NCBI GenBank assembly: GCA_008015325.1
Contig: SSFI01000041.1
Coordinates: 1 to 46,216, forward strand
Direction of reading: 5' to 3'
Source of the DNA: Rheinheimera sp.
GTDB taxonomy: Bacteria; Pseudomonadota; Gammaproteobacteria; Enterobacterales; Alteromonadaceae
DNA: 46,216 bases
Position numbers and translations under genes: made by a program. This document shows positions 233 to 36,762 of this stretch, piece after piece. The notes below the pieces were generated by a model that worked only from the letters and a program-made list of their open reading frames with translations, was not told the DNA's origin and made no database searches. Numbering within the stretch: the first letter of the stretch is position 1; each line of letters opens with the position of its first letter.

Positions 233-2686
233 ATGAAAATTCAACCTCTGGCACTGTCGCTTTTGCTCGGCAGTGGTCTGGTCATGGCGCAGGATGTGAA
301 TTTGTCGCATCCGGGGCAGCTCGATCAGGATTTACAACAACAGCATCTGCAGCAGCGTTTAGCCCAGCAACAAGCGGCGCAGGCCGACAAACATTCACAT
401 ACGAAAGCCCTGCAGCTGGCGCCGCAACAGCCGCGGCTGATATCGCCGGCGGAATTTGAGAAAACCCAGGCGCAGATTTATGCGCAGCAGCATGGTGTGA
501 CCTTGTCGGCGAAATGGCAGACGGCCGCACAGCAAGCGTTTTTAACCGCAGACCTGCCAAGCCAATCAACCACCAAAACACAAGCCGCCGTGGACCAGGC
601 TTTCACAGATAACCAGACCAGTAACGCTTTAACCCAGGATGAACCCAGTTTGCTGGCCGCTGGCTGCAGCAGCCCGGCTGATTTACTGCCATTACAGGAC
701 CAGGCGCTGATTGACGCCATCAGCAACAGCAGCCTGACCGGTTGTTTATATAAGCTGTACAACGTGGCATATGTCGGCACTGCACATTTCAGCGACCAGA
801 AAATTTTGACCATCGCCACCGCTATTAATACCAGGCTGGCCGGTTTTGACGGCTCGGACGCCTCTGGCGCTGCAGTGCTGGAAAAGCTGGTGACTTATTT
901 GCGGGCGATGCACTGGGCACAATCCGGCAGCAACCGGGTGTTTCAGAGCGCTTACAAAACCCAGTTAGAACAGGCGCTGCGCCAGTATGTCAACGGCGCG
1001 CAATTTGTCCGTTTTGACGGCGATGTGTCGCGTAACTTTATGCTGCGCTACGAAATGCTGATTTTAATCAACAGCTCCGGCACTGAAACGCTGCAGTTTT
1101 TACCGCGTATCAGCGAAGCCATCAGCGGCTATGCCAGCAGCGTCAACCGCGCCAATAACTGGGGTATCGCCTATGAAGAAAACGGCATGACCCAGCTGCT
1201 GACGCATTATTTTAATGCGGTCAATCAGGGCTCGCAGGAGCTGCAGACTTTACTGGCGCAACAGCCGCAAATCGTCACCAGGCTGCGTGATTTTGTGATG
1301 AATGATGGCCAGTGGCTGCTCGGCCATACTCGTGAGTATCAACTGAATGATGCAGTGTCTGAACTGGGTCGGCTGCTGAAGCTCGGCGGCACTGTGGCTG
1401 ATACGGTGCGCCCGGCGCTGCAGCAGATCCTCAGCACTTACAGCTATGGCGGCCCCGGCTCGCAGGCCTGGGTTAATGCGCAGGGCATGGTCAAAGCCTA
1501 TGACAGCGCTAACTGCGCTTTGTACGGCAATGCCTGTGCTTTTAATCTGGAAAGCACCGTCTTGTCGGGCGCCCACCAGTGCAGCAATACCTTAAAACTG
1601 CGCTACCAGGGCAGTATCAGCGCCGCCAACTTAAGCCAGATCTGTAGCAAACTGGGGGCGGAAGAACAGCTGTTCCATCAGACTTTTGGCACCCAAAGCG
1701 ACCAGCCGGTGGCCAATGACCAGAACGAAGATCTGGAAATGGTGATCTTTAAATCGTCCACCGACTATCAGAACTATGCCGGTCAGTTCTTTGGTATCAA
1801 CACCAATAACGGCGGTATGTATCTTGAAGGCACGCCGTCCGATCCGGACAATCAGGCGCGTTTTATCGCCTATCAGGCGACCTGGCTGCAGCCGGCTTTT
1901 GTGGTGTGGAACTTAGAGCACGAATACATTCATTATCTGGACGGCCGGTATAACCAATGGGGCAGTTTTAACGACCAGCCGGAAAACTCAGTCTGGTGGG
2001 GCGAAGGTCTGGCTGAATACCTGTCGCAGCCAGCAACTAACGCCAATGCACTCGCCGCCGCACCACTGAAAACTTATCAGCTCAGCGAGCTGTTCCAGAC
2101 CACTTACGCCAACAGCAACACCAGCCGTACTTATCACTGGGGTTATCTGGCGGTGCGCTACATGTTTGAACGTCAGCGCGCCGAAATCAACGACCCGTTG
2201 CTACCTTCGTTACGCGCCGCCAAGTATGTGATTTCTTCAGCGCCATGCAGCTTTGACTGGGGCTGGCAGGAAAAACCAACGGCCATTGCCAACAACTGGA
2301 GCTGGCTCTATGACGACAGCAACAACGGCTCAGGCTATTGGGTCTGGACCTGTGGTCAGCAAAAAACCGCTGAACCCGAATTACCGCCACACACACCTTA
2401 TCAGGACATCCTGACCCGCTGGGGCAGCAGCTTTGATGTCGGCTTCCACCAATGGCTGGATTGTCTGGTGGCAGGCAATGGCAACTGCAGTGAGTTCCGC
2501 CCGGCGGATTTAGATAAAAACGCTAGCGTCGACCGGCGCGACATTGAGCTGTTTACCCAGCGCCTGCGCAGCAATACCAACCTGACCATGGACCTGGATT
2601 TTAACGGCGATAAAAAAGTCGATCAGCGTGATGTCAGCGCCATGAGCAAGCTTTGCGACCGCGCCCGCTGTGCGATCGCCAGCTAA
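233..2686 (+). CDS. Secreted M9-family collagenase with C-terminal dockerin-like repeats
   Basis: Zinc metalloprotease of the Vibrio/Clostridium collagenase family (MEROPS M9), expected to cut collagen or similar protein outside the cell. A signal peptide spans about residues 1-19 (cut after VMA). The N-terminal half matches the M9 activator region. The catalytic site is HEYIH at 563-567 followed by GEGLAEY at 590-596; Glu595 lies 28 residues after the second His, the spacing of the third zinc ligand in clostridial ColG. The C-terminus (about 759-812) holds two calcium-loop repeats, DLDKNASVDRRD and DFNGDKKVDQRD, the pattern of a type-I dockerin. This differs from the PKD or PPC domains usual at the end of M9 enzymes. 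A weak AGGA ribosome site precedes the ATG. The next gene encodes a cohesin-like protein, which suggests the dockerin has a local partner. Confidence 0.9.
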   Translation: MKIQPLALSLLLGSGLVMAQDVNLSHPGQLDQDLQQQHLQQRLAQQQAAQADKHSHTKALQLAPQQPRLISPAEFEKTQAQIYAQQHGVTLSAKWQTAAQQAFLTADLPSQSTTKTQAAVDQAFTDNQTSNALTQDEPSLLAAGCSSPADLLPLQDQALIDAISNSSLTGCLYKLYNVAYVGTAHFSDQKILTIATAINTRLAGFDGSDASGAAVLEKLVTYLRAMHWAQSGSNRVFQSAYKTQLEQALRQYVNGAQFVRFDGDVSRNFMLRYEMLILINSSGTETLQFLPRISEAISGYASSVNRANNWGIAYEENGMTQLLTHYFNAVNQGSQELQTLLAQQPQIVTRLRDFVMNDGQWLLGHTREYQLNDAVSELGRLLKLGGTVADTVRPALQQILSTYSYGGPGSQAWVNAQGMVKAYDSANCALYGNACAFNLESTVLSGAHQCSNTLKLRYQGSISAANLSQICSKLGAEEQLFHQTFGTQSDQPVANDQNEDLEMVIFKSSTDYQNYAGQFFGINTNNGGMYLEGTPSDPDNQARFIAYQATWLQPAFVVWNLEHEYIHYLDGRYNQWGSFNDQPENSVWWGEGLAEYLSQPATNANALAAAPLKTYQLSELFQTTYANSNTSRTYHWGYLAVRYMFERQRAEINDPLLPSLRAAKYVISSAPCSFDWGWQEKPTAIANNWSWLYDDSNNGSGYWVWTCGQQKTAEPELPPHTPYQDILTRWGSSFDVGFHQWLDCLVAGNGNCSEFRPADLDKNASVDRRDIELFTQRLRSNTNLTMDLDFNGDKKVDQRDVSAMSKLCDRARCAIAS

Positions 2687-2713
2687 ATTAACTAACAAAA
2701 GAGAAATAACACT

Positions 2714-3298
2714 ATGAATATATTTAAAAAAACATTAGGCGTCGCCATCCTGAGCTTAGGCTGCAGCCTGTGCAATCTGGCCCATGCCGGCGTGATCCAA
2801 ATCGACACTGACAAAACGAGCTACCAAAGCGGTGAACTCATCACTGCCACGCTCAAAGCCAATGCTTTCAGCGAGGTGTTGACTGGCTTTTTCCTGGCGC
2901 TGCAGTATCAGCCGGGCCAGCTGGTGCTGCAGGACTTCAGTTTTGGCGGCGGCTTTGATGATGGCTTCGGTTCTTATCAGTTCTCGGACCACAGTGGTGG
3001 CCGCCTGATACTGGAGGAATATGCCGACTGGGCAGCAAATCTGGCCAGGTTAGCGACACAACAACCCGCAGGTTTTGTTCTGGCCTCAGTTCGTTTCAAA
3101 GCAGCCGGCACTGGTTTATTCAGCCTGAACCTGGACCCGGTCTATCTGGGCTTGTTGACGGCCAGTGGCGACCTGCAAGCTGCCGACTGGACCGGCAGCA
3201 ACTTCAGCGTCACCGATACCGCGACAGTGCCGGCACCGGCGCCGTTGTTACTGATGTGTGTCGCACTGATGGCACTGGTGCGCCGGCGTCGGGTCTGA
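2714..3298 (+). CDS. Cohesin-like protein with PEP-CTERM-like sorting tail
   Basis: A 194-residue exported protein with a signal peptide about 1-25 (cut after AHA). The middle (about 26-165) has the alternating beta-strand pattern of cohesin-like domains common among PEP-CTERM proteins, for example a TGFFLALQYQPGQL strand and an FVLASVRFKAAGTG strand. The tail, from about residue 171, is VPAPA, a hydrophobic stretch and RRRR, a variant of the PEP-CTERM signal handled by exosortase and rhombosortase-type systems. No exosortase gene is in the window. It starts 27 bp after the collagenase stop, behind AAGAGAAA, and is probably co-transcribed. The likely role is to hold the dockerin-bearing collagenase at the envelope or in the matrix; this is inferred, as many cohesin-like PEP-CTERM proteins have no known dockerin partner. 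Confidence 0.7.
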   Translation: MNIFKKTLGVAILSLGCSLCNLAHAGVIQIDTDKTSYQSGELITATLKANAFSEVLTGFFLALQYQPGQLVLQDFSFGGGFDDGFGSYQFSDHSGGRLILEEYADWAANLARLATQQPAGFVLASVRFKAAGTGLFSLNLDPVYLGLLTASGDLQAADWTGSNFSVTDTATVPAPAPLLLMCVALMALVRRRRV

Positions 3299-30095: not shown

Positions 30096-30167
30096 TTCAA
30101 GTTCCTTTTGTAGTACCAGTTAAGATTCTTTATGCAACATTTACCCAATCCTGACAATTCTCCCCGT

Positions 30168-30213
30168 TGCTTTTTTCAGCAGCCAAATTTAGAATGAACG
30201 TTCACTCTAAATT
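30168..30213 (+). promoter_or_regulatory. Promoter and TetR-type operator of the RND efflux operon
   Basis: A 28-bp inverted repeat at 30186-30213, symmetric at 26 of 28 positions, has core TGAACGTTCA. It covers a -10-like TAGAAT (30190-30195), which is 17 bp from a weak -35 TTGCTT (30167-30172). A bound TetR-family dimer would block RNA polymerase. The tetR gene at the end of this operon is the obvious candidate. Confidence 0.75.
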
Positions 30214-30226
30214 GGAGATCATTCCC

Positions 30227-31453
30227 ATGCAGCCTATTCGTCGTTCGCAACCTCTGCTGCCGGGCGCTGTGACTTTGCTCGCCAGCGCCTTATTTTTATC
30301 CGCTTGTGGTAAACCCGCCCCTGCCGCACAAGGCGCCGGCCCGGCTGTGGTGCCAGTCGGCGTGGTCACTCTGCAGGCACAGGACGTGACTTTAAGCCGT
30401 GAATTACCAGGCCGGGTGCAGGCCGCGCAAATAGCTGAGATTAGGCCGCAAGTCAGTGGCATTGTGCTGGCGCGCCACTTCATTGAAGGCAGCACCGTCA
30501 CAGCCGGCACCGCCTTATATCAAATTGATCCGGCGCCGTTTGAAGCCGCTTTATTAAGCGCCAAAGCCGCTGAAGCCAAAGCCAAAGCCAATATCGCCAG
30601 CAGCAAAGCCAAAGCGGAACGTTACCGCGAACTGCTGAAAATCAAAGCCGTCAGCCGGCAGGATTTTGATGAAGCCGAAGCAGCCTTCCTGCAGGCGCAG
30701 GCCGAATTACAAAGTGCCAAAGCGCAAATCAACACTGCGCAGATTAACCTGAACTACAGCAAAGTGCTGGCGCCTATCAGTGGCCAGATTGGCAAATCAA
30801 CGGTCACCACCGGCGCGCTGGTCAGCAGCGGCCAAAGCCAGGCTCTGGCGACTGTGACGCAATTGGACCCTATCTACATCGATTTAACGCAATCAAGCAG
30901 CGAATTGCTGGCACTGAAGCAAGCGCTGGCCAAAGGCACGGTCGGAACAGCAGCCACGCAGACAGAAGTCAGCCTGACACTGGAAGATGGCACCCCTTAC
31001 GCCCATAAAGGCACGCTGCAATTTAGCGAAGTGACAGTGAATCCGGATACCGGCTCGGTCACGTTGCGCGCCAGTTTCCCGAACCCTGACCAGCTGTTAC
31101 TGCCCGGCATGTACGTGCGCGCCACAGTACAAGAAGGCCTGCAGGCCAATGCCTTACTGGTGCCACAACGCGGTGTCAGCCGCAATGCCAAAGGCGAAGC
31201 CACGGCGCTGGTGGTCAGTAAAGACGGCAAGGTCGAGCCACGGCTGCTGCAAACCAACCGCACCATCGGCAGCAACTGGTTAGTCACGGCCGGCCTGAAT
31301 GATGGCGACCAGCTGATTGTTGAAGGCCTGCAAAAAGTGCGGCCAGGCGCGGTGGTGCAGGCGGTGCCTGCGACTTCCACCGCAGTCACTTCAGCTGCAG
31401 CAACTTCCGACAGCACAGGTTCTGCCCAGGCAGCGCCGGCTGCAGCCCGTTAA
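30227..31453 (+). CDS. RND efflux periplasmic adaptor lipoprotein (AcrA/MexA type)
   Basis: A 408-residue membrane fusion protein linking the RND pump to its outer-membrane channel. The ATG at 30227 has GGAG upstream; an upstream in-frame TTG lies before the operator and is rejected. The signal peptide ends in lipobox LSAC, giving a lipidated Cys. Typical order follows: barrel-sandwich half (ELPGRVQAAQIAEIRPQVSGIV), helical hairpin (about 95-175), second lipoyl half (LAPISGQIGKS) and beta-barrel and membrane-proximal domains. First gene of a four-gene operon, 12 bp before the pump gene. Confidence 0.93.
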   Translation: MQPIRRSQPLLPGAVTLLASALFLSACGKPAPAAQGAGPAVVPVGVVTLQAQDVTLSRELPGRVQAAQIAEIRPQVSGIVLARHFIEGSTVTAGTALYQIDPAPFEAALLSAKAAEAKAKANIASSKAKAERYRELLKIKAVSRQDFDEAEAAFLQAQAELQSAKAQINTAQINLNYSKVLAPISGQIGKSTVTTGALVSSGQSQALATVTQLDPIYIDLTQSSSELLALKQALAKGTVGTAATQTEVSLTLEDGTPYAHKGTLQFSEVTVNPDTGSVTLRASFPNPDQLLLPGMYVRATVQEGLQANALLVPQRGVSRNAKGEATALVVSKDGKVEPRLLQTNRTIGSNWLVTAGLNDGDQLIVEGLQKVRPGAVVQAVPATSTAVTSAAATSDSTGSAQAAPAAAR

Positions 31454-31465
31454 GCGAGGTTTCTG

Positions 31466-34400
31466 ATGTCGCATTTTTTTATTAACAGACCGATTTTTGC
31501 CTGGGCGCTGGCCATTATGGTGATGCTGGCCGGTGTGCTGGCGATCAGCGCCCTGCCCGTGGCCCAGTACCCGTCGATTGCACCGCCAGCCATTAGCGTC
31601 AGTGCCAATTATCCGGGCGCTTCCGCCCGCACGCTGGAAGACACTGTCACGCAAGTGATTGAACAGAAAATGAAAGGCCTCGACGGCCTGATGTATATGT
31701 CGTCGACTTCTGAATCCAGCGGTCAGGTCACGCTGACACTGACCTTTAACGCCGAAACCGACCCGGATATCGCCCAGGTACAGGTGCAGAACAAACTGGC
31801 ACTGGCCACGCCGCTGTTACCGCAGGAAGTGCAGCGCCAGGGTGTGACAGTCGCCAAATCCGCACGTAACTTTCTGATGGTCGTCGGTTTTGTCTCGGAA
31901 GACGGCAGCATGACCAACATCGACATCGGTGATTATGTCGCGTCCAACGTGCAGGACATTATCTCGCGCGTCGAAGGTGTCGGTGAAGTGCAGTTATTTG
32001 GCTCGCAATATGCGATGCGCATCTGGCTGGACCCGGCCAAACTGCAAAACTTTAAACTGACCCCGGCTGATGTAAGCAACGCCATTGTGGCGCAAAACGC
32101 CCAGGTGTCTGCCGGTCAGCTGGGTGGTTTACCGGCCGCACAAGGTCAGCAACTGAATGCGACTGTCACAGCGCAAAGCCGACTGCAAACGCCGGAACAG
32201 TTCCGCAATATTCTGCTGAAAAGCGCCTTGGATGGCAGCACTGTGCGGTTAAGCGATGTCGCCACTGTTGAACTGGGTGGCGAAAGCTACAACGTGGTTG
32301 CGCGTTTTAACGGTAAACCGGCCTCAGGGATCGGCATTAAACTGGCGAGCGGCGCCAATGCGCTCGATACCGCCGACGGCGTCAAACAAGCCTTAGCCGA
32401 TTTAACGCCTTATTTCCCAGCCGGCCTCAAAGCGGTCGTGCCTTACGACACCACGCCTTTTGTGTCTTTATCGATTGAAAAAGTGGTCCATACGCTGATT
32501 GAAGCTGTGGTGCTGGTGTTTTTAGTGATGTATCTGTTTTTACAGAACTTCCGCGCCACGCTTATTCCGACCATCGCAGTACCGGTGGTGCTGCTTGGCA
32601 CTTTCGCCATCCTCTATGCCTTTGGTTATTCGATTAATACCCTGACCATGTTTGCGATGGTGCTGGCAATTGGTCTTTTAGTCGATGACGCCATCGTCGT
32701 AGTGGAAAACGTCGAACGGGTAATGACCGAAGAGAAGCTGTCGCCCATTGCGGCGACGCGCAAATCGATGAACGAAATCAAAGGTGCTTTAGTCGGTATC
32801 GCCATGGTGCTGTCAGCGGTATTTGTACCGATGGCATTTTTCGGTGGTTCTACCGGCGTGATTTACCGCCAGTTCTCAATAACCCTGGTTTCAGCGATGG
32901 CGCTGTCAGTGCTGGTGGCGCTGATTTTAACGCCGGCGCTTTGTGCCACTTTGTTAAAACCAAGCCATGTACCAAACCCTGGCTCGCTTTCCGGCCGCTT
33001 CTTTGGTGGTTTTAACCGCGGTTTTGATAAAACCAATCAGGGCACCCAGGGTTTTGTCGCACGGATGATTGCACAAAGCAAACGTTACCTGCTGGTGTAC
33101 GGCGTGATTTTAGTCGGTTTGCTGTATGTATTCAGCCAGTTACCTTCAGCCTTTTTGCCGGACGAAGATCAGGGCATTTTGTTTAATCAGGTGGTGTTAC
33201 CGGCAGGCAGTACGACAGAGCAAACGCTGGGTGTGGTCGAGAAAATGGAGCAGCATTTCCTGGTCGACCAACAGGAAGCGGTGAAATCGATTTTTACTGT
33301 GGCCGGTTTTAGTTTTGCCGGTTCCGGTCAAAACGCCGCCATCGGCTTTGTGAATCTGAAACACTGGGATGAGCGGCAGCGGCCGGACCTGCATGTCGGC
33401 GCCGTCGCTGGTAAAGCTATGGGTTACTTCGCCACCATCAAAGAAGCCTTTGTCTTTGCTTTCCCGCCACCGGCAGTAGTGGAACTTGGCACCGCCAACG
33501 GCTTTAACATCTATCTGCAGGACCGTGCTGGCCTTGGTCACGACCAACTGCTGCAGGCGCGTAATATGCTGCTCGGTATGGCAGCAAAAAGCCCGGTGCT
33601 GGCCGGGGTGCGGCCGAATGGTCAGGAAGATACGCCGGAGCTGAAACTCGACATCGATTTAGCCAAAGCGGAAGCGCTGGGGGTCAGCCAAAGCAGCATC
33701 AACAGCACGCTCGCCACCGCCTGGGGCAGCAGTTATGTCAATGATTTTATTGACCGCGGCCGGGTGAAAAAAGTCTTTCTGCAAGGTGCGGCCGACAGCC
33801 GGATGGCGCCGGAAGATTTAACCAAATGGTATGTGCGCAACAGCAAAGGCGACATGGTGCCGTTCAGCGCCTTTGCCAGCAGCCACTGGAGCTATGGCTC
33901 ACCACGGCTGGAACGTTACAACGGTTTCTCCGCGATGGAGATTCAGGGCGCCGCCGCACCGGGTTACAGCACAGGTCAGGCGATGGATGAAATGGAAAAA
34001 CTGGTCAAGCAACTGCCTGCCGGCGTCGGTTTCGAATGGACAGGCATCTCTTATCAGGAACGGTTAAGCGGTGGTCAGGCGCCCATGTTGTATGCCTTGT
34101 CGCTGCTCGTTGTGTTCCTCTGTCTGGCAGCTTTATATAACAGCTGGTCGGTACCGGCCGCGGTGATGATGATAGTGCCGCTGGGTGTATTTGGCGCCGC
34201 AACCGCTGCGCTGGTTGCAAACCTCTCCAACGACATCTACCTGCAGGTTGGCTTGCTGACCACTATGGGCCTGGCATCGAAAAACGCCATTTTGATTGTC
34301 GAGTTTGCGATTGCGCGGATGGAACAAGGCCTAGGCCTGGTCGAAGCCGCGATTGAAGCGGTGCGGCTGCGGCTGCGGCCAATCCTGATGACATCGATGG

Positions 34401-34591
34401 CCTTTATCTGTGGCGTGTTGCCGCTCGCGATCGCCTCCAGTGCCGGTTCAGGCGCGCAGAATGCGCTGGGTATTTCGGTGATTGGCGGCACGCTGGCGTC
34501 CAGTATTCTGGCGGTAATCTTTGTGCCGCTGTTTTTTGTGCTGGTGCGCCGGCTGTTCCCGCTCAAAGCGGCCGCAGATACTCAGGGTTAA
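31466..34591 (+). CDS. RND multidrug efflux transporter (HAE1 family, AcrB/MexB type)
   Basis: A 1041-residue proton-driven inner-membrane pump of standard length with 12 TM segments and two large periplasmic loops. The opening [20 protein letters not shown] is typical of the HAE1 family. The proton-relay pair Asp-Asp is present in [17 protein letters not shown] on TM4, and TM10 carries [14 protein letters not shown] with the relay Lys. Substrates probably include hydrophobic drugs, dyes and detergents, by family. AGGTTTCTG precedes the ATG, and the outer-membrane gene begins 10 bp after the stop. Confidence 0.95.
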
Positions 34592-34601
34592 GGAGCTTTC
34601 C

Positions 34602-36083
34602 ATGTTATTGCCATTAAAACAGACCAACGGCTTGCGGCTGAAAACACTGAGCGTCCTGACTGCCTTTGCTTTGACCGGATGTTCGTTAGCGCCGGAGCTG
34701 CCACAAACTCCGGCCACAGTACCCACCGAGTACGCACAAACGCCAACTGATGCTGCGGCGGCACAGGTCGCCGACTTGTCCTGGCAGGCATTTTTTCAGG
34801 AGCCGCGGCTGCAGCAGCTGCTGACACAAGCGCTGGCCCAGAATCATGATCTGAAACTGGCGGTGCTGAATGTCGAGCGGGTGCGGGCGCTTTATCAAAT
34901 CAGCGACAGCAACCGCTATCCGGCGCTGGACTTATCCGCCAGCCAAAGCCGGCAACGGCTGCCGGCGGACCTAAGCCAAAACGGGAGCCAAAGCGGCAGT
35001 GCAGCTATCCAGCAACAAGCCAGCGTGACTGTAGGCAGCAGCTGGGAGCTGGACCTGTTTGGCAAAGTGCGCAATCAGTCTGAACAGGCGCTGCAGCAGC
35101 TCTTTGCCAGTGAAGCGGCGCAACAGGCGGCGAAAGTCAGCCTGCTCGCTGAAGTCGCCACCAGCTGGTACAGCTACACCAGCAATCTGCAGCTGCTAAC
35201 GTTGGCAGAGCACAGCGCCGCCAGCTACCAGCAAAGCCTGCAACTGACCGAACGCAAAGTTGCGCTCGGTGCGGCGTCAGAGCTGACGCTCAGTCAGCAG
35301 CAAAGCCTGCTGGCCAACAGTCAGGCCGATGTGGCGCGGTATCAGCGTTTACTGCAGCGTGATTTAAACGCGCTGCAGTTGCTGCTGGCAAAGCCCGCTG
35401 CCGATCTCAGTGCCTGGCTGCCAACGGCGCAGGAATCGTTGCAACAATCCAGCCTGCAGTTGCCTGAACTGGCGCCCGGCAGCCCGGCTTTATTGCTGAC
35501 GCAAAGACCGGATATTGTGCAGGCCGAACATCAGCTGAAAGCCGCCAATGCTAATATCGGCGTGGCGCGGGCAGCGTTTTTCCCGTCCATCAGCCTGACC
35601 GCCAGTGCCGGTACTGCGTCGAATGAACTCAGCGGTTTATTTAACGGCGGCAGTGGCAGCTGGAGCTTTGTGCCAAACATCAGCCTGCCGATTTTTAATA
35701 TGGGCCGCACGCAGGCCAACTTGCAGCTGGCTGAAACAGACCGTACTATCGCGCTCGAAACCTATCAGCAGAGCATCCGCCAGGCATTTCGCGAAGTGTC
35801 AGATCAACTGGCCGACAAAGCCGGTTATCAGGCGCAGTTGAAAGCGTTGCAGGCACTGGAACGCAGTAGTTTTCACAGTAAACAGCTCAGTCAGGCCCGC
35901 TATGACGCCGGCGCCGACAGTTATCTGCAACTGCTGGACGCCGAACGCAGCTGGTACAGCGCACGGCAACAGCTGACCACAGCGCGGCTGAATTATCTGC
36001 AGGCGCAGCTCGGGCTCTATAAAGCGCTGGGTGGTGGCTGGCAGGAGCAGCAAACTCAGACCAGCAGCACCACAGCGCAGTAA
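34602..36083 (+). CDS. RND efflux outer-membrane channel lipoprotein (NodT/OprM type)
   Basis: A 493-residue TolC-like channel component. The ATG at 34602 follows an ideal AAGGAG, which removes a 27-codon upstream extension overlapping the pump gene. The signal peptide ends at lipobox LTGC. Two OEP repeats follow (about 55-245 and 265-470) with the usual WELDLFGKVRNQSEQA and LLTQRPDIVQAEHQLKAANANIGVARAAFFPSI patterns. Third gene of the operon, before tetR. Confidence 0.93.
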   Translation: MLLPLKQTNGLRLKTLSVLTAFALTGCSLAPELPQTPATVPTEYAQTPTDAAAAQVADLSWQAFFQEPRLQQLLTQALAQNHDLKLAVLNVERVRALYQISDSNRYPALDLSASQSRQRLPADLSQNGSQSGSAAIQQQASVTVGSSWELDLFGKVRNQSEQALQQLFASEAAQQAAKVSLLAEVATSWYSYTSNLQLLTLAEHSAASYQQSLQLTERKVALGAASELTLSQQQSLLANSQADVARYQRLLQRDLNALQLLLAKPAADLSAWLPTAQESLQQSSLQLPELAPGSPALLLTQRPDIVQAEHQLKAANANIGVARAAFFPSISLTASAGTASNELSGLFNGGSGSWSFVPNISLPIFNMGRTQANLQLAETDRTIALETYQQSIRQAFREVSDQLADKAGYQAQLKALQALERSSFHSKQLSQARYDAGADSYLQLLDAERSWYSARQQLTTARLNYLQAQLGLYKALGGGWQEQQTQTSSTTAQ

Positions 36084-36150
36084 CGACAGACGTTGCGACA
36101 ATCGACGCAGTAATAAAAGATACAGCGACAAACAAGGCGGAGGAAACAAC

Positions 36151-36762
36151 ATGACGACCAAAACCAGACGACAAGACCCGCAACTGGCGCAAAGCCGGCG
36201 GCTGCAAGTGCTGGACGCGGCGTCTGATTGCTTCCGCCGCCGCGGGTATCACGGTGCCGGCATGGCGGAAATTTCCAAAACTGCGCTCATGAGCCCGGGC
36301 CATATCTATAACTACTTCGACAACAAAGAGGCCATTATCGACGCCATCATCGAGCGCGATATGGAAGAGATGTTCTCGGTATTTAATACCTTCCTGCAGG
36401 CCGAAGGCCCCTTGCTGGATGTGATGCTCGATGGTTGTGACGATGGTGTCGACAAACATCTGGACGTGGAAAAAGGTGCGTTAAAGCTGGAAATGCTGTC
36501 TGAAGCGGCACGCAACGAAAAAGTGGCCTTGGCGCTGCAGGCCAATGATGTTGAAGCGCGCCGGTTGATGAAACAACTGCTGCGCCGCGACGGTAGCCTG
36601 GTGCGGGACCTGCCGGAGCCGGAACTCGACAGCCGTATCAGCGTGATGTTTGCGCTGTTTGGCGGCCTGATGATCCGCCGCGTGCTGAATCCGCAGCTGG
36701 ACCGCGAAACGGTGCTGATCGCACTGAAACCGGTGATCCGCACCCTGCTGTCGCCATTCTGA
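36151..36762 (+). CDS. TetR/AcrR-family repressor of the efflux operon
   Basis: A 203-residue regulator. The ATG at 36151 follows GGAGG, so the longer reading starting within the channel gene is rejected. The N-terminal helix-turn-helix (about 20-65) reads VLDAASDCFRRRGYHGAGMAEISKTALMSPGHIYNYFDNKEAII, standard for TetR. The C-terminal ligand domain is not assignable. It lies 67 bp after the channel gene and probably represses the operon through the palindrome at 30186-30213. Confidence 0.92.
   Translation: MTTKTRRQDPQLAQSRRLQVLDAASDCFRRRGYHGAGMAEISKTALMSPGHIYNYFDNKEAIIDAIIERDMEEMFSVFNTFLQAEGPLLDVMLDGCDDGVDKHLDVEKGALKLEMLSEAARNEKVALALQANDVEARRLMKQLLRRDGSLVRDLPEPELDSRISVMFALFGGLMIRRVLNPQLDRETVLIALKPVIRTLLSPF

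Follow-up and report, generated by a model that had tools for sequence, protein, structure and literature searches.

We find that two adjacent genes on a 46-kb contig of Rheinheimera sp. (SSFI01000041.1; all 46,216 nucleotides were analyzed and are called the window here) probably make up a two-gene enzyme-retention module of a general kind, in which a degradative enzyme ending in a dockerin is paired with a cohesin protein bearing a PEP-CTERM-like anchor. The window is an entire contig of a 3.86-Mb genome assembly in 139 contigs. The open reading frame (ORF) listing and the sequence confirm two forward-strand genes, at 233–2686 (817 amino acids, aa) and 2714–3298 (194 aa), separated by an intergenic gap of 27 bp (2687–2713). 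We read this pair as an instance of a general module because the pairing recurs in relatives, because the enzyme cargo varies, and because orthologues of the enzyme that lack the dockerin also lack a cohesin. Locus, genome and contig labels beginning with L, G and C are our own.

The upstream gene encodes an M9 collagenase, recognized by a Peptidase_M9_N domain at residues 147–310 (671–1162; PF08453, 3.8e-14), a Peptidase_M9 catalytic domain at residues 400–665 (1430–2227; PF01752, 2.5e-89) and, on reading the sequence, a zinc-protease motif of the HExxH form, HEYIH, at residues 563–567 (1919–1933). An original prediction made from this stretch had the collagenase ending in two dockerin loops, and both are present and complete: DLDKNASVDRRD at residues 759–770 (2507–2542) and DFNGDKKVDQRD at residues 789–800 (2597–2632), each found in the sequence, by PF00404 and by a pattern search. 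Behind them stands a CX4C tail formed by Cys808 and Cys813 (2654–2671). Dockerins coordinate calcium through five side-chain ligand positions in the loop (1, 3, 5, 9 and 12), and both collagenase loops have an acidic residue or Asn at all five. Scores for the domain lie near the cut-off of 22.9 bits: PF00404 (Dockerin_1, residues 758–805; 0.001) reaches 19.6 bits in the protein scan, just below, and 23.1 bits in the genome scan, just above. All 19 best Foldseek matches of a structural model of the dockerin (pLDDT 78) are dockerin chains or complexes that hold a dockerin, but at E ≥ 0.3.

The 194-aa neighbor has the fold of a cohesin and is homologous to cohesins, as had been claimed for the gene 27 bp on. 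Its cohesin domain occupies about residues 26–168 (2789–3217), as judged from the model strands (E27 to E167) and the profile alignment. Of the two Pfam searches proposed at the outset, PF00404 thus succeeded in the genome scan and fell short in the protein scan, while PF00963 does not report the window protein at its gathering score when the single sequence is scanned. Because this search and single-sequence phmmer against the PDB (E = 0.0024 to cohesin chain 3l8q_A) were too weak, it was a 41-member family profile that settled the call: it matches 3l8q at 5.8e-14, every one of its 20 best PDB rows is a cellulosomal or cohesin chain, and unrelated prostaglandin synthases begin at 0.0037. PF00963 itself matches 18/41 members of the family at E ≤ 0.01. 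The AlphaFold model of the protein, built with 22 relatives drawn from named genomes (pLDDT 84.6), finds 6kgd (4.1e-9) and the noncellulosomal cohesin 2xdh (1.1e-8) as best Foldseek matches, and cohesins or cohesin-holding complexes make up 50/50 of the rows listed (of 106 at E ≤ 0.001). The protein contains one cohesin only and is not a multi-cohesin scaffoldin of the cellulosomal kind; by eye, its N-terminus is a Sec-type signal peptide. Its closest match among 196 family genomes, in the same-genus genome G045, is 74% identical.

The cohesin protein ends in a PEP-CTERM-like sorting tail at residues 172–193 (3227–3292), again in line with the original prediction. VPAPAP, a hydrophobic stretch and a basic end, RRRRV, fit the PEP-CTERM layout, and the scores lie near the cut-offs, with PF07589 at 16.3 bits (cut-off 20.7) and TIGR02595 at 15.5 bits in the protein scan (cut-off 16) and 19.7 bits, above the cut-off, in the genome scan.

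Co-occurrence of the two genes in relatives had been set as a test beforehand, and the pairing held. In an evenly drawn sample of 196 family genomes, relatives of the small protein occur in 48, at 62 places in all. We counted the neighborhoods of the 50 best of these 62 places (two of the other 12 appear in loci L156 and L159) and found a dockerin in the gene directly upstream at 45. The upstream partner's dockerin is internal at L029, and at L045 the profile missed it and one loop pattern, together with inspection by eye, revealed it. At two more places (L040 and L044) the layout is reversed, with the cohesin gene first and the dockerin at the N-terminus of the gene directly downstream, so that 47 of the 50 best cohesin places adjoin a dockerin gene. 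A reversed order also occurs at L091 and L093 in the wider class, where the dockerin match lies near the N-terminus of the gene that follows the cohesin. In a separate scan of 22 named loci, several of them from genomes also within the family sample, the gene directly upstream encodes a dockerin in 22/22; these loci span Rheinheimera, Arsukibacterium, Alishewanella, Thalassotalea, Alkalimonas, Colwellia, Paraglaciecola, Bowmanella and metagenome-assembled genomes.

The association also appears when the search is started from the other partner. Among 40 loci chosen by dockerin match (the best-ranked ones, skipping all but L156 and L159 of those that adjoin a previously collected cohesin), 31 show a cohesin by profile; counted per dockerin site, 32/46 are paired with an adjacent cohesin. 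Dockerin profile matches are found in 48/48 module genomes and in 52/148 others. In the window's genome we found two dockerins and two such cohesins, and they are paired, one pair in the window and the other on contig C51 behind a nuclease gene. The nuclease of the C51 module (L031:2808-4857) is split over three ORFs of 156, 163 and 365 aa in different frames, its counterpart in G045 is one 848-aa ORF, and the C51 cohesin is intact; the split gene is likely a pseudogene or an assembly error. In the wider class, the cohesin profile matches 25/369 genomes.

Comparison of partners across loci rests on 86 deduplicated pairs. Extraction was given 102 loci that already looked paired, and it left out L025, L030, L040 and L044 along with nine dockerin loci lacking a cohesin and 27/30 class-level loci; L043 and L045 (2/102) gave no pair, and the 101 pairs obtained became 86 once identical ones were removed. 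The full ligand pattern is present in both calcium loops in 77/86 pairs. A loop pair at such spacing occurs in 80/86 real partners, which were picked by the dockerin profile and are hence not independent of this test, and in 2/1720 shuffled partner proteins. All 86 pairs carry the CX4C tail, a count that selection favors because the dockerin search profile was built from 23 CX4C-containing tails; L045 and L050, located through their cohesins, also carry it by eye. The PF00404 gathering score is exceeded by 7/18 scanned cargo proteins. Arg at position 11 of the loop was considered as a sign of dual binding, which is not claimed because both loops have this Arg in just 20/77 two-loop pairs.

A membrane-like stretch is found in the cohesin-protein tails of 84/86 pairs and a strict [VI]PxP in 63/86. 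Exosortase, detected with PF09721, is present in 47/48 module genomes and 103/148 others (Fisher P = 9e-6, not corrected for relatedness among genomes). The lone exosortase-less module genome is that of the window.

Module enzymes are diverse. The original prediction had treated the pair as a protease-specific oddity, which proved too narrow: the commonest cargo among the 86 pairs is ExeM/NucH nuclease (39), ahead of M9 collagenase (22), BNR_4 protein (9), M43 peptidase (4), CBM6 protein (4) and others (8), as assigned by BLAST to five representatives plus a catch-all class. Representatives were also scanned for domains, 18 proteins with Pfam and 8 cargo proteins with NCBIfam. Cohesin-paired cargo identified in this way includes ExeM/NucH (NF033681, 2.8e-194), lambda-carrageenase (2.2e-175), GH98, an M43 peptidase, a protein with a beta-porphyranase C-terminal domain and CBM6, a GH141-like protein and F5/8 proteins. 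Pfam found no cellulase family in any of the 18 cargo proteins it was run on. Elsewhere, a GH42 protein carries a dockerin with no adjacent cohesin (L178), and an S8 subtilase that has no own cohesin stands behind a nuclease module (L175).

Cohesins mostly keep one cargo class yet occasionally swap. On the cohesin tree we count 15 changes of cargo class, a figure inflated by the catch-all class, against a possible minimum of 5 and 41.9 with shuffled labels. For example, the cohesins of Arsukibacterium and R. baltica adjoin nucleases but fall within the collagenase group of the tree. Exchange is also seen on the enzyme side. Of the 21 closest collagenase orthologues, counting that of the window, 17 end in the dockerin tail, and each of these adjoins a cohesin. 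In the other four (G063, G185, G157 and G192; loci L124, L126, L130 and L132) the match stops at residue 751–758 and PPC domains follow, supported by PF04151 at 1.5e-16 or better in the three scanned and by eye in G185. These four dockerin-less orthologues have no adjoining cohesin, and none was found in their genomes at the family-search threshold; the G185 genome has one weak dockerin match elsewhere (1.3e-4).

Distances between sequences show that the cohesin and dockerin of a pair travel together. Over the 86 pairs, cohesin and dockerin distances have a rank correlation of 0.43, the maximum in 1000 free shuffles being 0.147, and swaps of modules within genomes reached 0.43 in 0/2000 trials. 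Covariation between cohesin and dockerin columns is 0.286, above the maximum of 0.225 in free shuffles, and it also beat shuffles within five clusters but not those within 14 clusters of relatives, so that we give it no weight.

The reading we prefer, that of an enzyme-retention module, would work as follows. The upstream gene encodes a secreted degradative enzyme (here the collagenase) whose extreme C-terminus is a calcium-binding dockerin closed by the CX4C pair, and the downstream gene, presumably co-transcribed, encodes a protein in which a single cohesin stands between a Sec-type N-terminus and a PEP-CTERM-like tail. We infer that both proteins are exported and that the calcium-loaded dockerin would then bind the cohesin of the neighboring gene one to one, as its cognate partner. 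The tail would keep the cohesin, and hence the enzyme, at the cell surface or in exopolysaccharide, and would be processed by exosortase where the cell has one. Such a system would behave as a plug-in module, in that related cohesins may serve different enzymes and an enzyme may bear other C-terminal domains in place of a dockerin.

Several results weigh against this reading. No dockerin lies nearby at three of the 50 best cohesin places (L025, L030 and L043), and no cohesin match was found at 9/40 dockerin loci (L158, L160, L170, L177, L178, L180, L184, L185 and L186). Outside the family any dockerin signal, by profile or loop pattern, is found nearby in only 12/26 class-level loci and is mostly weak, so the close pairing is established within the family alone. 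Linkage alone would suffice to produce the same co-inheritance of partners, and the column covariation of 0.286 is within the range of 14-cluster shuffles (mean 0.278, maximum 0.359). Finally, PF09721 finds no exosortase in the window's 139-contig assembly, and a 20-kb exosortase region of the close relative G045 (L086) has just three matches of 30–33 bases in the window's genome; the region may have been lost or may have escaped assembly, and exosortase anchoring in the window strain is conjectural. The same exosortase-less assembly has PrsK (G000:C65:75028-77016, 3 kb from a contig end), the kinase of the PEP-CTERM system.

The covariation result also bears on the possibility that the pairing is a by-product of neighborhood, with the domains diverged and binding lost. 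Pfam scores of the window proteins near or below cut-offs would fit such relics too, but we consider this very improbable, since both calcium loops retain the full ligand pattern in most pairs (77/86) and the pairing holds over many cargo types. The 14/46 dockerin sites without their own cohesin raise a different question, namely whether the domains are genuine and the neighbors are not each other's main partners, the cohesins and dockerins instead mixing in trans as a small surface enzyme consortium. Dockerin-tailed proteins with no cohesin nearby may use a cohesin in trans or may be orphans, and one 19-kb region (L163, G177:C9:160000-179000) holds four dockerin genes, of which the one scanned encodes a BNR_4 protein, and only two cohesin matches, one strong and the other marginal. 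Mixing as the general rule is nevertheless unlikely, given that re-pairing within genomes never attained the observed distance correlation (0/2000) and that an adjacent cohesin is present at 32/46 dockerin sites.

Absence of an exosortase from the window's genome is also what one might expect if the cohesin were a private chaperone or guard, which would attach to the dockerin in the periplasm and fold, hold or silence the enzyme during export, with the hydrophobic tail keeping it at the inner membrane and no display taking place. That the cohesin is a private neighbor, and that nuclease and protease cargo could harm the cell, are compatible with such a role. Yet exosortase accompanies the module in 47/48 genomes, the cargo includes polysaccharidases that are unlikely to be harmful to the cell, and the PPC-bearing collagenase orthologues manage without a cohesin, and we accordingly give a guard function a small probability. 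Retention of the enzyme by an anchored cohesin is the explanation we favor with reasonable confidence.

Elsewhere in the window, 30167–36762 reads by eye as an efflux operon of the RND type (membrane fusion protein, pump and outer membrane factor) with a TetR-like regulator behind it. A plasmid origin of the contig was rejected, as a plasmid collection gave no match.

Clostridial cellulosomes join type I and type II cohesin-dockerin pairs on anchored scaffoldins. The module has the same two folds, with the dockerin on the enzyme and the cohesin on a presumably anchored partner, but it differs in having a single cohesin in a protein of 194 aa without scaffoldin repeats, a partner encoded by the next gene, a PEP-CTERM-like tail, a Gram-negative host and, among the 18 Pfam-scanned cargo proteins, no cellulase. 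Its tail follows the PEP-CTERM/exosortase system reportedly described by Haft and colleagues, in the C-terminal VPxP, the hydrophobic stretch, the basic end and the co-occurrence with exosortase, whereas the tailed protein here would act as an adaptor for a second, unanchored enzyme. Some ExeM/NucH nucleases carry their own GlyGly-CTERM anchor (NF033680, exonuc_ExeM-GG); this same enzyme family is the commonest module cargo, but the module enzyme ends in a dockerin and the anchor is encoded by a separate gene. Noncellulosomal cohesin/dockerin modules are said to have been treated by Peer et al. in 2009.

Among such modules outside cellulosomes, those of Saccharophagus degradans, a marine gammaproteobacterium, offer a parallel: the portion consulted of the 2008 genome report lists two dockerin-like and six cohesin-like ORFs and leaves their binding to future study (PMC2386152). 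As far as that portion goes, the present pairs differ in that the partners are neighboring genes and the cohesin has a sorting-type tail. A 2017 review states, in the part available, that the function of cohesin/dockerin modules beyond the cellulosome was not known (PMC5244752). "Long type" ulvan lyases reportedly have a dockerin called "type II" (Kopel et al. 2016, as cited in PMC11101340), which likewise places a dockerin on secreted algal-polysaccharide lyases, and the available text of the citing paper mentions no partner. The original prediction had thought such a system new to a gammaproteobacterium. For the parts this does not hold, given the S. degradans precedent (PMC2386152, in the portion cited above), and the neighbor-gene arrangement was not found described in the open-licence literature searched. 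In that literature, no paper joined cohesin, dockerin and PEP-CTERM, nor PEP-CTERM and "cohesin domain"; this absence is weak evidence because that literature misses most subscription journals.

A more far-reaching interpretation, to which we lean slightly less than to its denial, is that the family uses a widespread and previously undescribed plug-in display in which each secreted depolymerase bears a dockerin closed by CX4C and has a private cohesin-PEP-CTERM anchor encoded next to it, with pair-specific (orthogonal) recognition so that a single cell could run several anchors that do not cross. On this view the module would parallel the cellulosome in a Gram-negative host and without a scaffold, with DNase, collagenase and carrageenase among its cargo. 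If the retention module is real, dozens of natural cohesin-dockerin pairs would be on offer as a ready set, and the question raised for S. degradans in 2008, whether cohesin-like modules bind dockerins, would become a simple pairwise test. Dockerins on the secreted enzymes of these bacteria would gain a partner and a purpose, and the enzymes would be retained at the surface of their producer, not released as public goods.

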